DNA of 64,000 nt. It comes from Jiangella alba. Its GTDB lineage: Bacteria; Actinomycetota; Actinomycetes; Jiangellales; Jiangellaceae. The stretch covers positions 1-64,000 of the forward strand of contig NZ_FNUC01000003.1 of assembly GCF_900106035.1 (NCBI RefSeq). Reading direction: 5' to 3'. Each line of letters opens with the position of its first letter. Position 1 is the first letter of the stretch. Shown piece by piece: positions 4,967-9,484 of this stretch. Made by a program: the position numbers and the translations under genes. The notes under the pieces were generated by a model that saw only the letters and a program-made list of their open reading frames with translations, was not told the DNA's origin and searched no databases.

Positions 4967-5039
4967 TTGCAATGAGCACCAATACGCACCGCACCGGTAG
5001 CCACACCTGACCGGCGGTGCGTCTACGTGCTCATTGCAA
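4967..5039. repeat. Long inverted repeat with TTGCAATGAGCAC arms, copy 1
   Basis: The left arm TTGCAATGAGCAC (4967-4979) and right arm GTGCTCATTGCAA (5027-5039) are perfect complements. A second paired block, CGCACCGC (4985-4992) with GCGGTGCG (5014-5021), lies inside. The AT content is high for this genome. A second copy with the same arms but a longer middle occurs at 30196-30341. This copy ends 12 bp before the candidate MocR operator and 33 bp before the MocR start codon. Confidence 0.8.
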
Positions 5040-5050
5040 GGGGGCCGCAG

Positions 5051-5068
5051 CTGTACCAGTACGGTTGG
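5051..5068 (+). promoter_or_regulatory. Candidate MocR operator overlapping a leaderless promoter
   Basis: CTGTACCAGTACGGTTGG contains GTAC-CA-GTAC and includes the -10-like TACGGT (5060-5065), six nt before the ATG at 5072. Sixteen bases match, with one difference, the minus-strand sequence upstream of the paiB-like gene (7767-7783). A repeated site in front of a MocR gene and a nearby operon suggests autoregulation plus control of that operon. This is inference. Confidence 0.55.
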
Positions 5069-5071
5069 CGG

Positions 5072-6403
5072 ATGGTGCCCGAACAGTTGATCGCCGGTCG
5101 TACGTCGCGGGCCATCGCCGACAGCGTCGAGGCGGCGATCGAGGCCGGGCGGCTGGCCGAGTCCGAGCCGCTGCCGTCGGTGCGGGGCCTCGCTGCGCGC
5201 CTCGGCGTCAGCCCGACGACGGTCGCCGCGGCCTACCGTGACCTGCGGCTGCGCGGCGTCGTCACCAGCGAGGCCGGCCGCGTCACGCGGGTCGGCGTCC
5301 GGCCGGTCAGCCGGGCCCAGCAGTACGGTGCGGTCGGGCCGGGCGTCCGCGACCTCAGCGACGGCAACCCGGACCCCGAGATGCTGCCCGACGTCGCCGC
5401 CATGCTGCGCCGGATGGAGCTGCCGCGATTCCTGTACGGCGCGCCGGCGGTGCTGCCGGAGCTGGCGGAGATCGGGCTGGCCCAGTTCGCCGATCTCCCC
5501 GCCGTGCTGCGCACCAACGCCGGGCCGCTCGCCGTCGTCGGCGGGGCGATGGACGGTGTCGAGCGGGTGCTCGCGGCCCGGGCCCGGCCCAACGACCGGG
5601 TCGCCGTCGAGGATCCCGGCTACCCCGGTGTGCTGGAGCTGGTCCGGTCGATGGGCATGGTCCCGGTCGGCGTCGCGCTCGACGAGGACGGTCCGGTGCC
5701 GTCCTCGCTGGCGTCGGCGCTGGCCGGCGGGGTCGTCGCGTTCGTCGTCACGCCGCGGGCGCAGAACCCGACCGGCGCCGCCGTCGGGCCGGACCGCGCG
5801 CGCGACCTGCGCGACGTCCTCTACGACCATCCGGACGTCATCGTCATCGAGGACGACCACGCGTCGCTCATCGCCGGCGCCCCGCACGCCTCCGTCTGCG
5901 CGGGCCGCCCGTCGTGGGCGGTCGTGCGGACCACCAGCAAGGTGCTCGGGCCGGACCTGCGCACCGGGTTCCTGCTCGCCGACCCGCGCACCGCCCGCCG
6001 GGTGGCCGAGCGGCAGCTGGTCGGCGCCGGCTGGGTGAGTCACGTGCTGCAGCACCTGGTGGTGCGGCTGTGGTCCGACGACGACATCAGCACCGGCATG
6101 CGGCTGGCCGCCGACGTCTACGGCGCCCGGCGGCGGGCGCTGCTCAACGGCCTGGCCGAGCGTGGGGTGGCGGCGCGCGGGCGGTCCGGCCTGAACGTGT
6201 GGGTGCCGGTGCCGCACGAGGTCCCCGTCGTGCAGGCGCTGCAGAGCCGCGGCTGGGCGGTCCGGGCCGGCGAGCCGCACCGCATGCACAGCGAGCCGTT
6301 CGTCCGCATCACCACGGCGACCCTCTCCGCCGCCGACGCGGACCGCCTCGCCACCGACGTCGCCGCGGTGCTCGGCCGGTCGCAGCGGACGCGGCTGGCC
6401 TGA
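5072..6403 (+). CDS. MocR-type GntR regulator with aminotransferase-like domain
   Basis: A 443-residue protein. A GntR winged helix-turn-helix occupies residues ~1-75 ('EPLPSVRGLAARLGVSPTTVAAAYRDL'). It is followed by a fold-type-I aminotransferase domain with 'EDPGYPG', 'TPRAQNPTGA', 'VIEDDH' and the region 'RTTSKVLGPDLRTGFL', where the PLP Lys is the K of 'SKVLGPDLR'. MocR proteins sense PLP or PLP adducts and usually control a neighbouring operon (family knowledge). The ATG is chosen because TACGGT lies 6 nt upstream and the HTH begins soon after; a longer in-frame start at 5027 would run through the inverted repeat. The likely target is the paiB/amidohydrolase pair. Confidence 0.85.
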   Translation: MVPEQLIAGRTSRAIADSVEAAIEAGRLAESEPLPSVRGLAARLGVSPTTVAAAYRDLRLRGVVTSEAGRVTRVGVRPVSRAQQYGAVGPGVRDLSDGNPDPEMLPDVAAMLRRMELPRFLYGAPAVLPELAEIGLAQFADLPAVLRTNAGPLAVVGGAMDGVERVLAARARPNDRVAVEDPGYPGVLELVRSMGMVPVGVALDEDGPVPSSLASALAGGVVAFVVTPRAQNPTGAAVGPDRARDLRDVLYDHPDVIVIEDDHASLIAGAPHASVCAGRPSWAVVRTTSKVLGPDLRTGFLLADPRTARRVAERQLVGAGWVSHVLQHLVVRLWSDDDISTGMRLAADVYGARRRALLNGLAERGVAARGRSGLNVWVPVPHEVPVVQALQSRGWAVRAGEPHRMHSEPFVRITTATLSAADADRLATDVAAVLGRSQRTRLA

Positions 6404-6900
6404 GCCGGGCGGGCTGGCGCGAGCGGGCGGGGCTGGCGTGAGCGGGCGGGGGCTGGCGCTAGCGGGCGCGGCTGTGTGCTGGACGGGACTGGGCGGGATT
6501 GGCGTGGGCCGGAAGGGTTGGCCTGAGCAGGCGGAGCCGGGCGGGCGGGGCTTTCCGCTGGCAAGGCCGAGCGGACCTGGCCTGAGCAAGCGGAGCCGGG
6601 CGGGGTTGGCCGCTGGGCGAGGCCGAGTGGGGCCGGTGTGAGCGGGGCGGGGTTGGCCGCTGGGCGAGGCCGAGTGGGGGCGGTGTGAGCGGGGCGGGGT
6701 TGGCCGCTGGCGGGGCCGAGCGGGCCTGGCCTGAGCCGGCGGAGCCGGGCGGGGTCAGCTGCTGGGCGGAGCCGAGCGGGGCCGGCGTGGGCAGTCGGGT
6801 TGGCGTGAGCGGGCGGAGCCGGGCGGGTTGGCGTGAGCGGGCCGGGCCGCAGCGGACGGCGGGTCGCAGCGGGCGCGGCGGGCCGGAGTAGGCGCGGCTG
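6404..6900 (+). repeat. G-rich degenerate tandem repeat region (47-bp period)
   Basis: About 500 bp without a convincing gene, built from degenerate G-rich units. The clearest part is a 47-bp period: GGGGTTGGCCGCTGG recurs at 6602, 6649 and 6696. The flanks carry looser versions such as GAGCGGGCGGGGCTGGCG. The plus strand holds many runs of three or more G, so quadruplex formation is possible. Any open frames here are composition artefacts. Confidence 0.75.
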
Positions 6901-6922
6901 GTCTCGAGCGCGCGGTAGGTAT

Positions 6923-6970
6923 GACCCGCCCCTTGAGGGAGGGGGCCCACCCTACGGGCGGGCACTGACA
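6923..6970 (+). repeat. Interspersed hairpin repeat, copy B
   Basis: GACCCGCCCCTTGAGGGAGG leads into the core CCCACCCTACGGGCGGGCAC and TGACA. CCCGCCC on the left can pair with GGGCGGG on the right, and the inner G-run with the C-run. It lies between the G-rich tandem repeats and the 3' end of the paiB-like gene, 67 bp away. The sequence after the core (CTC..CGTAGCT) is partly shared with copy A. Confidence 0.8.
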
Positions 6971-7037
6971 CTCTCGGCCGTAGCTGAGTCCCGGCTTCGC
7001 TGACGTCGCGGCCCCTGGGCTCGTGGGCGACGCGGCG

Positions 7038-7760
7038 TCAGGTCGGTTCGTCGTCGCCGAGGCGGAGGACGTCGGTCATGAGTGCGGCGACTTCGCGGTC
7101 GCGGCCGTGCGTGCTGGCGGCCAGCGTGGCCGCGACCCGGCGCTGCGTCTCGACCGGCTTGTTCTGGCTGAGCTTGAACGTGCTGCGGACGTCGGCGGCG
7201 GTCAGCTCGAACGCGACGATGCCGGCCAGCAGCTGGTCGACGTAGTCCAGCGACGGGGTCGGGTCCCAGCCGGTGCCGGCGTACGCCTCGGTCGCGTCGA
7301 TGCTGGCCATGATGATCGCCAGTGCCTCGTCCCGGTCGTCGACGACCCGGAGCGGACCGCTGACGTGCACGGCGGCGTAGTTCCAGGTGGGGACGTTCGG
7401 ACGGTCACCGTCGTACCAGGTGGGCGAGACGTAGCCGTCCGGGCCGAGGAACACCGCGAGCGCCGAGCCCGCCGTCCGCAACGCCGCCGCCTGCGGGTTC
7501 ACCTTCGCGAGGTGACCGACGATCACGCCGCCGAGCAGCGGCTCGTCGTCGGCCGGCGGCCGGCCGTCCGGGCCGGGCTTGCGCAGCATCGGCACGTGCG
7601 TCGCGACGGGAGCCACCCCGGCGCCCGCCGCCCCGCCGGACGCCGCCCCGCCGCCGGACGCCGGGGAGCCGCCGCAGACGATGAGGCCGAACGGGTTCTC
7701 GCGGACCAACCGGCCCTCGCGGTCCGGCGAGTCGGCGCGGAAGTGCCGAGGCGTGTGCAT
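7038..7760 (-). CDS. PaiB-like FMN-binding split-barrel protein
   Basis: A 240-residue protein. The opening 'HTPRHF', then 'ENPFGLIV', 'ATHVPML', 'GHLAKVNPQ', 'YVSPTWY' and 'VPTWNYAAVHV' are the conserved blocks of the PaiB/FMN_bind_2 family, historically called negative transcriptional regulator. It binds FMN in a PNP-oxidase-like barrel. It is ~30 residues longer than most PaiB proteins because of a Gly/Ala-rich insert after residue ~30 ('ASGGGAASGGAAGAG'), possibly a replication-slippage expansion. The ATG at 7760 is preceded by the candidate MocR site. It is divergent from the amidohydrolase gene and probably coregulated with it. Confidence 0.85.
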   Translation of the reverse strand: MHTPRHFRADSPDREGRLVRENPFGLIVCGGSPASGGGAASGGAAGAGVAPVATHVPMLRKPGPDGRPPADDEPLLGGVIVGHLAKVNPQAAALRTAGSALAVFLGPDGYVSPTWYDGDRPNVPTWNYAAVHVSGPLRVVDDRDEALAIIMASIDATEAYAGTGWDPTPSLDYVDQLLAGIVAFELTAADVRSTFKLSQNKPVETQRRVAATLAASTHGRDREVAALMTDVLRLGDDEPT

Positions 7761-7766
7761 GCGGCT

Positions 7767-7785
7767 CCCAACTGTACTGGTACGG
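7767..7785 (-). promoter_or_regulatory. Second candidate MocR operator, in the divergent paiB/amidohydrolase promoter
   Basis: On the minus strand, GTACCAGTACAGTTGGG lies 6 nt upstream of the paiB-like ATG; it matches the MocR upstream site GTACCAGTACGGTTGG with a single base change. TACAGT within it is a plausible -10. A weaker related element (ACAGTACGCGAACTG) follows at about 7805 toward the amidohydrolase. Confidence 0.55.
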
Positions 7786-7858
7786 TTGCTGCGACCGTAA
7801 CGCAACAGTACGCGAACTGCCAGACTGTGCCCGCGACGGCGGACGACGTGGAGGTGCG

Positions 7859-9484
7859 GTGGAGCTCGACCTGCTGGTGACCGGCGCCCAGATCGTGACC
7901 ATGGACCCAGCCCGCCCGGCCGCCTCGCGGCTCGGCGTCTGGCGGGGCCGCATCGCCGGGCTGGACGAGGAGCTCGACGGGCTGCGGGCGCGGCGGACGG
8001 TCGATCTCGGCGGCGCCACGGTGCTGCCCGGCTTCGTCGACGCACACAGTCATCTCGCGTGGACGGGCATGGCCGCCGGCCTGGTCGACCTGTCCGGCTT
8101 GCGCACCCGCGACGCCGTGCTGGACGCGGTCCGGCGGGCGGCGGACGCGGTGCCAGGCGACGGGTGGGTCGACCTCGCCGGATACGACCAGCGTCCGCTC
8201 GGCGCGCACCTGACCCGCGACGACCTCGAGGCGGCCGCGCCCGGCCGGCGGCTCTACGTCCGGCACACGTCCGGGCACGCCTGCCTGGTCTCCGACGCCG
8301 TCCTGGCCACCGTCACCGACGACGAGTTCGCGGCGCACGCGCCCGGCGTGGTCCGCGACGCCGGCGGCCGGCCGACCGGCCTGCTGGAGGAGGGCGCGAT
8401 GGCGATCGCCCGCGCCCGCCGGCTGCCGTACACGCTGGACGAGATCGTCGCCGCCGTCGAGACCGCCGGGCGCGAATGCCTGGCGCAGGGCATCACGACG
8501 GTCGCCGAGGCTGGCATCGTCACCGACCTCGCCGGGTCGTCGCCGGTCGAGTTGGCCGCGTACCAGGTCGCGCGCGAGCAGGGCCGGCTGCCGGTCCGCG
8601 TCCAGACGATGGTGCCGGCGGCCATGCTGCGGCCGTCCGGCGCGGCCGACGAGGACGGCATCGCGCGCGCCGTCGACCTCGGGCTGCGCACCGGGCTCGG
8701 TGACGACCGGCTGTCGATCGGCGCGCTGAAGCTGTGGCTGGACGGCGGCATGATGGCCCGCACCGCCGCCCTGACCTCGCCGTACCTCACGTCCGACGGC
8801 TCGGACGGCGGCAGCGGCCAGCTCGCGTTCGGCGACGACGAGTTGGCGGCGCTCATCCTCGACGCGCACCGGGCCGGCTGGCAGCTGGCCATCCACGCCA
8901 TCGGCGACGCCGCGGTCGACCAGGCGATCGCCGTCGTCACCGCGGCGCAGGCGGCGCACCCGCGGCCCGGCGCCCGGCACCGCGTCGAGCACTGCGGGCT
9001 GGTCCGCCCCGAGCAGCTGCCGCGGCTGGCGGCGGCCGGCCTGACCGCCGTCGTCCAGCCGACGTTCCTGCACGCCTTCGGCGACGACTACTCGACGATC
9101 ATGGGCCCCGCGCGCAGCGGCTGGATGTACCGCGGCCGGTCGTTCCTCGACCACGGCGTCCGCGTCGCCGGCAGCTCGGACCGGCCGGTGGCCGACGGCG
9201 CCCCGCTGCGGGCGATCCAGTTCATGGTCGACCGCACCAGTTCCGGCGGCGCCCCCGTCGGCCCGGACGAGGCCGTCACCGTCGACGAGGCGCTCGCCGC
9301 CTACACCACCGGCAGCGCCTACGCCTGCCGCGTCGACGACGTCGCCGGCAGCCTGGCGGCGGGCAAGCAGGCCGACCTCGTCGTGCTCGGCGCCGATCCG
9401 CGCGCCGTCGAACCGTCCGCCATCGCCGCCGTCCCGGTCGTCGCGACGATCCTCGGCGGCGAGGTCGTCCACGGGGCGATCTGA
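7859..9484 (+). CDS. Amidohydrolase family 3 (YtcJ-like) protein
   Basis: A 541-residue metal-dependent hydrolase. An N-terminal beta-sandwich half is followed by 'GFVDAHSHL' (metal His pair), 'LWLDGGMMARTAAL' (the Lys of 'ALKLWLDGG' is a likely bridging residue), 'AIHAIGDAAVDQ', 'RVEHCGLV' and 'SSDRPVADGAPL' with the catalytic Asp; it ends 'GSLAAGKQADLVVLGADP'. These are the YtcJ/AF3 blocks. The substrate is unknown; the family hydrolyses exocyclic amide or imine bonds. The GTG start follows GGAGG by 4 nt. It is divergent from the paiB-like gene across a ~100-bp shared promoter and is the plausible metabolic output of the MocR circuit. Confidence 0.85.
   Translation: MELDLLVTGAQIVTMDPARPAASRLGVWRGRIAGLDEELDGLRARRTVDLGGATVLPGFVDAHSHLAWTGMAAGLVDLSGLRTRDAVLDAVRRAADAVPGDGWVDLAGYDQRPLGAHLTRDDLEAAAPGRRLYVRHTSGHACLVSDAVLATVTDDEFAAHAPGVVRDAGGRPTGLLEEGAMAIARARRLPYTLDEIVAAVETAGRECLAQGITTVAEAGIVTDLAGSSPVELAAYQVAREQGRLPVRVQTMVPAAMLRPSGAADEDGIARAVDLGLRTGLGDDRLSIGALKLWLDGGMMARTAALTSPYLTSDGSDGGSGQLAFGDDELAALILDAHRAGWQLAIHAIGDAAVDQAIAVVTAAQAAHPRPGARHRVEHCGLVRPEQLPRLAAAGLTAVVQPTFLHAFGDDYSTIMGPARSGWMYRGRSFLDHGVRVAGSSDRPVADGAPLRAIQFMVDRTSSGGAPVGPDEAVTVDEALAAYTTGSAYACRVDDVAGSLAAGKQADLVVLGADPRAVEPSAIAAVPVVATILGGEVVHGAI

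Follow-up and report, generated by a model that had tools for sequence, protein, structure and literature searches.

A PtsJ-like MocR regulator and its candidate operator at a paiB/amidohydrolase locus of Jiangella alba

Does one short DNA site tie a MocR-type regulator of Jiangella alba to a PaiB-family protein and an amidohydrolase, and what would such a regulon do? The locus lies in the 64,000 nucleotides analysed here (the window; positions 1 to 64,000 of contig NZ_FNUC01000003.1, assembly GCF_900106035.1), from a soil bacterium of the genus Jiangella. The regulator gene, mocR (5072..6403, + strand, 443 aa), has an ATG start and is probably leaderless; paiB (7038..7760, - strand, 240 aa) runs convergent to it, and amh (7859..9484, + strand, 541 aa), divergent from paiB, encodes an Amidohydro_3 (YtcJ-like) metal hydrolase with a GTG start and GGAGG upstream. 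MocR regulons are known mainly for vitamin B6, gamma-aminobutyric acid, taurine and ectoine. Most PaiB-family proteins carry annotations as flavin-binding regulators, yet recent structures show several of them to be heme enzymes. We favour, with a probability of roughly 0.7, a small local regulon in which a PtsJ-like MocR would repress itself and paiB, and probably amh, with PaiB most likely a heme-binding protein.

A palindromic candidate operator at mocR and paiB

The initial annotation had proposed a box, GTACCAGTAC(G/A)GTTGG, immediately before the mocR and paiB starts, and most of this description held. The mocR copy lies at 5053-5068 (+), 3 nt before the ATG at 5072, and the paiB copy at 7768-7783 (-), where the distance to the ATG at 7760 is 7 nt and not the claimed 6; at both genes the box does overlap a -10-like TACNGT hexamer. 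A whole-genome pattern scan found exactly two exact copies of GTACCAGTACRGTTGG in the 7.68-Mb genome, at mocR and paiB (all genome-wide operator scans reported here are pattern matching only). With two mismatches allowed, eight genome matches compare with nine for the reversed control pattern, so that the six further hits are background; only one of them, C4:3333822, reaches a matrix score of 17.8, and its palindrome centre is CCGG. Within the window, four matches with up to three mismatches were found against 0.27 expected.

The element itself is a 16-bp palindrome, ACNGTACYRGTACNGT. Operator O1 (7771..7786, strand not applicable) matches it perfectly as ACTGTACTGGTACGGT, presenting the -10-like TACAGT toward paiB and TACGGT toward amh, whose start is 73 nt from O1. 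The operator at mocR (5050..5068, + strand), GCTGTACCAGTACGGTTGG, fits the palindrome save for the outermost base and lies over the -10-like TACGGT at 5060-5065, with 6 nt between hexamer and ATG. The looser 14-bp palindromic core occurs exactly at five places in the genome, two of them at this locus. A putative second site, O2 (7794..7809, strand not applicable), is a degenerate palindrome, ACCGTAACGCAACAGT, centred 23 bp from O1, and by its position would cover the paiB -35 region. Jiangella anatolica has a perfect palindrome copy at the O2 position (ACCGTACCAGTACAGT), the O1-O2 spacing is 23 bp in Jiangella and 22 bp in Phytoactinopolyspora, and insertions of tens of bp on the way to paiB, present in some species, leave the O1-O2 block intact. 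At mocR the ATG position and the box are likewise conserved in sister species, with a spacing of 6 or 7 nt from TACNGT to ATG, as expected for a leaderless transcript. An upstream GTG at 5027 was rejected as the mocR start in favour of the ATG conserved across sisters, and a +22 direct repeat, AACAGTTG (5082-5089), inside the start of mocR was dropped, being absent from most sister species.

The inheritance of these elements was followed through 22 genomes of the Jiangellaceae, which are related and do not count as independent observations. mocR and paiB occur together in 15 of the 22 and are both missing from the other seven, and the operator is conserved in 14 further genomes at mocR and paiB, being kept at paiB in the genomes read that have both genes. 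The amidohydrolase gene is present in the same 15 genomes and in three more that have neither mocR nor paiB (G226, G102 and G019), at whose amidohydrolase loci no operator was found. The three-gene combination is conserved in Jiangella and, in part, in the sister genus.

Rearranged genomes help to separate the members. G226, a Jiangella, has lost mocR, paiB and all of the operator region; amh, 95% identical to that of the window, is kept and starts about 9 nt past a cupin stop codon. G192 and G200 have mocR on a separate contig, with operators still at mocR and at paiB/amh. In G174 (Phytoactinopolyspora) an M19 dipeptidase gene separates amh from paiB; paiB and mocR each keep their own operator, and amh has its own site, TATCCGCACTAGTACAGATA, with a matrix score of 13.2. 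For comparison, a score of at least 13 is reached 5 times in 316 kb of sequence from other MocR loci, where related operators occur as well. These cases together with the co-occurrence make mocR and paiB the core pair and amh a likely but separable member. The central claim of the initial annotation, that a shared operator ties mocR to paiB, is therefore supported at the level of comparative sequence by co-occurrence, by co-loss and by persistence of the site where mocR has been relocated. We consider it highly likely that MocR binds the operator, and hold with similar confidence that paiB belongs to its regulon; membership of amh is probable, and is made plausible by the G174 gene having its own site although split from paiB. 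In G174 the M19 membrane-dipeptidase gene (L066:2600-3790) and amh diverge from a shared gap that holds the MocR-type site, and the dipeptidase gene may also belong to the regulon in that species.

Two repeat features flank mocR. Directly upstream, at 4967-5039, is a strong hairpin with arms TTGCAATGAGCAC / GTGCTCATTGCAA (z -7.1), and its arm has 138 copies in the genome (71 on the + strand, 67 on the -) against 0 for the reversed control. Most copies form inverted pairs with a few tens of bp between them, and one set comprises eight direct copies with a 38-bp period (C3:530662-530941). No hairpin was seen at the same place in the sister species read, and the arms look like part of an extensive family of dispersed palindromic repeats. 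Where mocR and paiB converge, the stretch separating their stop codons (6384-6903) holds degenerate G+C-rich tandem repeats with periods of 10-149 bp; the gap is only about 20 bp in one sister species.

The regulator, PaiB and the amidohydrolase

The mocR product has the two parts expected of its family, an N-terminal GntR winged helix (PF00392, 6.6e-13) and a C-terminal fold-type-I aminotransferase domain (Aminotran_1_2, PF00155, 6.2e-23). It matches the NCBIfam PtsJ equivalog NF012025 over its full length with 345.2 bits, short of the cut-off of 573, and on these profiles the regulator is PtsJ-like, not PtsJ. Nor is control of the pyridoxal kinase gene pdxK, as by PtsJ, indicated: the operator-bearing genes are mocR and paiB/amh, and there was no kinase match among the scanned neighbour genes. 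The pocket for pyridoxal 5'-phosphate (PLP) is well kept in an alignment of relatives (the PLP-binding Lys290 in 95/95, Asn232 in 94/95, Asp261 in 89/95 and Arg412 in 95/95).

A quick tree of 94 MocR relatives, in which some branches are long, groups all the Jiangellaceae proteins with one Streptacidiphilus protein. Elsewhere, in Streptomyces-type families, other actinomycetes, Chloroflexota and Acidobacteriota, the relatives mostly have a divergent Pyridox_ox_2 (PF12900) split-barrel gene. At the 11 loci of one family, f19 (L087, L056, L099 and eight others), Pyridox_ox_2 and PaiB-like genes adjoin on the same strand, divergent from a PtsJ-like MocR, and at L087 they overlap by 4 bp. A PaiB-like gene stands directly divergent from mocR in Streptacidiphilus, and from MocR in two genomes of a further genus (L100 and L115), where no Pyridox_ox_2 gene intervenes. 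The PaiB-like proteins of L087 and L100 keep the His of the heme-ligand motif. Those beside MocR outside the family are only about 27-33% identical to the PaiB of the window, which suggests that the pairing may have arisen by repeated association rather than as one inherited pair.

Orthologous MocR genes paired with Pyridox_ox_2 have a palindrome related to the operator (TGCACTAGTGCA type; GYNCYRGNRC), in most of the cases listed 22 nt before their leaderless GTG starts. It is present at 31 of 42 loci with Pyridox_ox_2 and at all 11 with Pyridox_ox_2 plus PaiB (2.7 and 0.8 in shuffles), and is rare in PdxS-linked and other MocR groups. The occurrence of related palindromes at orthologues with other partners indicates that the site follows the regulator, not PaiB. 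The refuting observation named by the initial annotation, homologous MocR genes with the same site and without these partners, was made only in part: it applies, with a related palindrome, outside the family, while inside the Jiangellaceae no operator was found without paiB.

PaiB belongs to PF04299 (3.2e-38). By sequence its closest solved structures are 9kea (3.8e-39), 9ebk (3.4e-35), the NohD group (1e-27 to 1e-31) and 9vyc (4.4e-22), and an AlphaFold2 model (mean predicted local distance difference test score, pLDDT, 76.9) gave the Foldseek match 9ebm at 1.7e-17, with a template-modelling score of 0.78 on the target. By both routes the nearest structures are heme-bound piperazate synthases, the N-hydroxylamine dehydratase NohD and heme-bound Bacillus PaiB. 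Aligned to piperazate synthase 9QLK, with residue roles taken from PMC13274692, PaiB has Thr54 at T38, His83 at H61 (axial), Asn88 at N66, Thr125 at T102, Tyr173 at Y150, Lys196 at K173, Asn200 at D177 and Lys201 at K178; these positions, together with a variable Gly/Ala loop, span 7158..7670 (- strand). His83, Thr125, Tyr173, Lys196 and Lys201 are invariant in 15 PaiB sequences, the distant Streptacidiphilus one included.

With heme enzymes as the closest structures, and with the axial His and the main catalytic residues kept, the earlier label of flavin protein is probably wrong, and heme is strongly favoured over flavin. Such proteins are commonly annotated as flavin mononucleotide (FMN)-binding, and Bacillus PaiB, though it binds heme, lacks N-N bond activity (PMC13274692), so that heme binding is the firmer prediction and the chemistry the weaker one. 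The Gly/Ala insert singled out by the initial annotation is present, at about residues 31-50. Its length varies between sister species and the model gives pLDDT below 50 at residues 36-46, and we rejected it as a functional feature; it is a variable and probably disordered loop.

The amh product matches PF07969 (6.7e-92), with 3igh and 3icj as relatives whose metal-ligand motifs align. Against 3igh, DAHSH, KLWLDG, IHAIGD, RVEHC and SSDRP align, and the metal ligands of amidohydrolase family 3 (HxH, Lys, His, His, Asp) are all present.

Proposed control and competing explanations

We propose that MocR binds the palindrome covering the -10 hexamers of the paiB promoter and of the mocR promoter, which appears to be leaderless, with a second, weaker site at paiB/amh about two helical turns from O1. 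Bound MocR would shut off mocR and paiB, and probably the divergent amh too. Since the -10 of each of the first two genes falls within the site, a block of both would be expected, comparable to the repression of pdxK by PtsJ, and repression is the likely sign at paiB. PLP, or a PLP-reactive amine, would release or reshape binding through the PLP-carrying aminotransferase-like domain (Lys290). PaiB would most likely bind heme, as a split-barrel member of the piperazate synthase, N-hydroxylamine dehydratase and PaiB family, so that the regulon probably handles an N-hydroxylated amine or something similar. That the substrate of PaiB is itself of hydroxylamine type is a tentative proposal, a little short of even odds. 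A bolder and quite improbable extension would make the PLP of MocR a bait for hydroxylamines, hydrazines and similar PLP-poisoning amines, switching on a heme-dependent, hydroxylamine-removing PaiB together with the amidohydrolase; if true, it would account for PaiB-like genes beside this MocR clade in several lineages.

Several observations weigh against the proposed regulon or parts of it. The distance from O1 to the paiB start varies among species, with tens of bp inserted in some, which complicates a simple model of -10 occlusion at paiB. The amidohydrolase gene is kept without mocR in three genomes and is therefore not strictly dependent on the regulator. Asp177, which contacts the substrate in piperazate synthase, is replaced by Asn200 in PaiB, and the genes examined next to the locus include no recognised N-hydroxylase. 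It also should be considered that sister MocRs pair with Pyridox_ox_2, as would suit a role in vitamin B6 salvage, with MocR sensing PLP like Salmonella PtsJ and controlling PaiB as a split barrel resembling pyridoxamine phosphate oxidase, the amidohydrolase being incidental. The nearest named MocR is indeed PtsJ, the pdxK repressor of Salmonella (PMC13353753), and the PdxW regulons of PMC5320631 contain mainly putative pyridoxamine phosphate oxidases. However, the nearest solved relatives of PaiB are heme enzymes whose heme and catalytic residues it conserves, the genome has five other Pyridox_ox_2 matches over the cut-off, and in G174 amh has an operator of its own; we regard B6 salvage as unlikely.

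The sign of control could also be reversed at the targets, with MocR activating paiB and amh, as GabR and PdxR do their targets, and repressing only itself. Where PdxR has been characterised, it represses its own gene and activates a divergent operon (PMC5320631), and O1 and O2 are situated well ahead of the amh start (7859) and may even precede an amh promoter. Yet the strongest paiB site covers the likely -10, where activators seldom bind, and the closest named relative is a repressor, so that activation, too, seems improbable. Far less credible is that the palindrome belongs to another regulator, for example PaiB, which is annotated as a negative transcriptional regulator, or is a shared element of leaderless promoters. 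The site does overlap -10-like hexamers and Protein Data Bank (PDB) entries do name PaiB-family proteins as regulators, but the conserved element is symmetric and reaches beyond the -10, related palindromes occur at orthologous MocR genes without PaiB, G226 lost the site together with mocR while amh stayed, and PaiB has no DNA-binding domain recognised by Pfam.

Known MocR and PaiB systems

Local MocR repressors and MocR regulons with a split-barrel partner both have precedents. Salmonella PtsJ, the best-matching named MocR family, is a MocR repressor of the vitamin B6 gene pdxK (PMC13353753); unlike here, where the score is far under the cut-off and the partners are PaiB and an amidohydrolase, its partner is pyridoxal kinase. 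Regulons in which a MocR has one split-barrel partner are well established, as PdxW (Suvorova and Rodionov 2016; PMC5320631). They are very small, like the one proposed here, with palindromic or direct boxes whole helix turns apart, and sister MocRs of the window's regulator likewise pair with Pyridox_ox_2. The main text of that paper does not name PaiB (FMN_bind_2) or Amidohydro_3 as members; the partner here is PF04299, not the PF12900 of the sister MocRs, in the same split-barrel class.

With the piperazate synthases KtzT, PipS, LnzB and SbPZS, PaiB shares 31-37% identity over the fold, the split barrel, the axial His and the Thr, Tyr and Lys residues. It lacks the full set of bona fide piperazate synthases (Tyr7, Asn63, Asp177, Lys178), having Phe7, Ala85, Asn200 and Lys201, and no N-hydroxylase or non-ribosomal peptide synthetase gene was recognised beside paiB. 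It resembles wild-type NohD (PDB 9OQS and mutants, judged from the mutant names) in His2, in the Ala two after the axial His (Ala59) and in Val96 (PaiB Val123), but Arg144 of NohD is Tyr173 in PaiB, as in piperazate synthase, and the C-terminal Lys-Pro is piperazate-synthase-like. Bacillus PaiB, of the same Pfam family and with a heme-bound structure (9VYC), is about 26% identical and is described as a regulator of sporulation and proteases.

The initial annotation did not recognise the combination as described, which is fair for the three genes together, and a MocR with PaiB and amidohydrolase, the partner heme-enzyme-like, was not found in a partial literature search. The MocR clade is nonetheless PtsJ-like, with Pyridox_ox_2 split barrels as its usual partners elsewhere, and some Streptomyces-family genomes have a PaiB-like gene after Pyridox_ox_2. 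A related palindrome is also present at relatives of the regulator in other actinomycetes, together with a divergent Pyridox_ox_2 gene that in some cases has a PaiB-like gene behind it, and we therefore see the locus as a variant of a known MocR theme, here with a partner that resembles a heme enzyme. It would extend MocR regulons to a heme-type partner under a compact operator. The co-inherited regulator would also give a direct handle on stand-alone PaiB members, as a compound that releases MocR would point to the likely substrate class.

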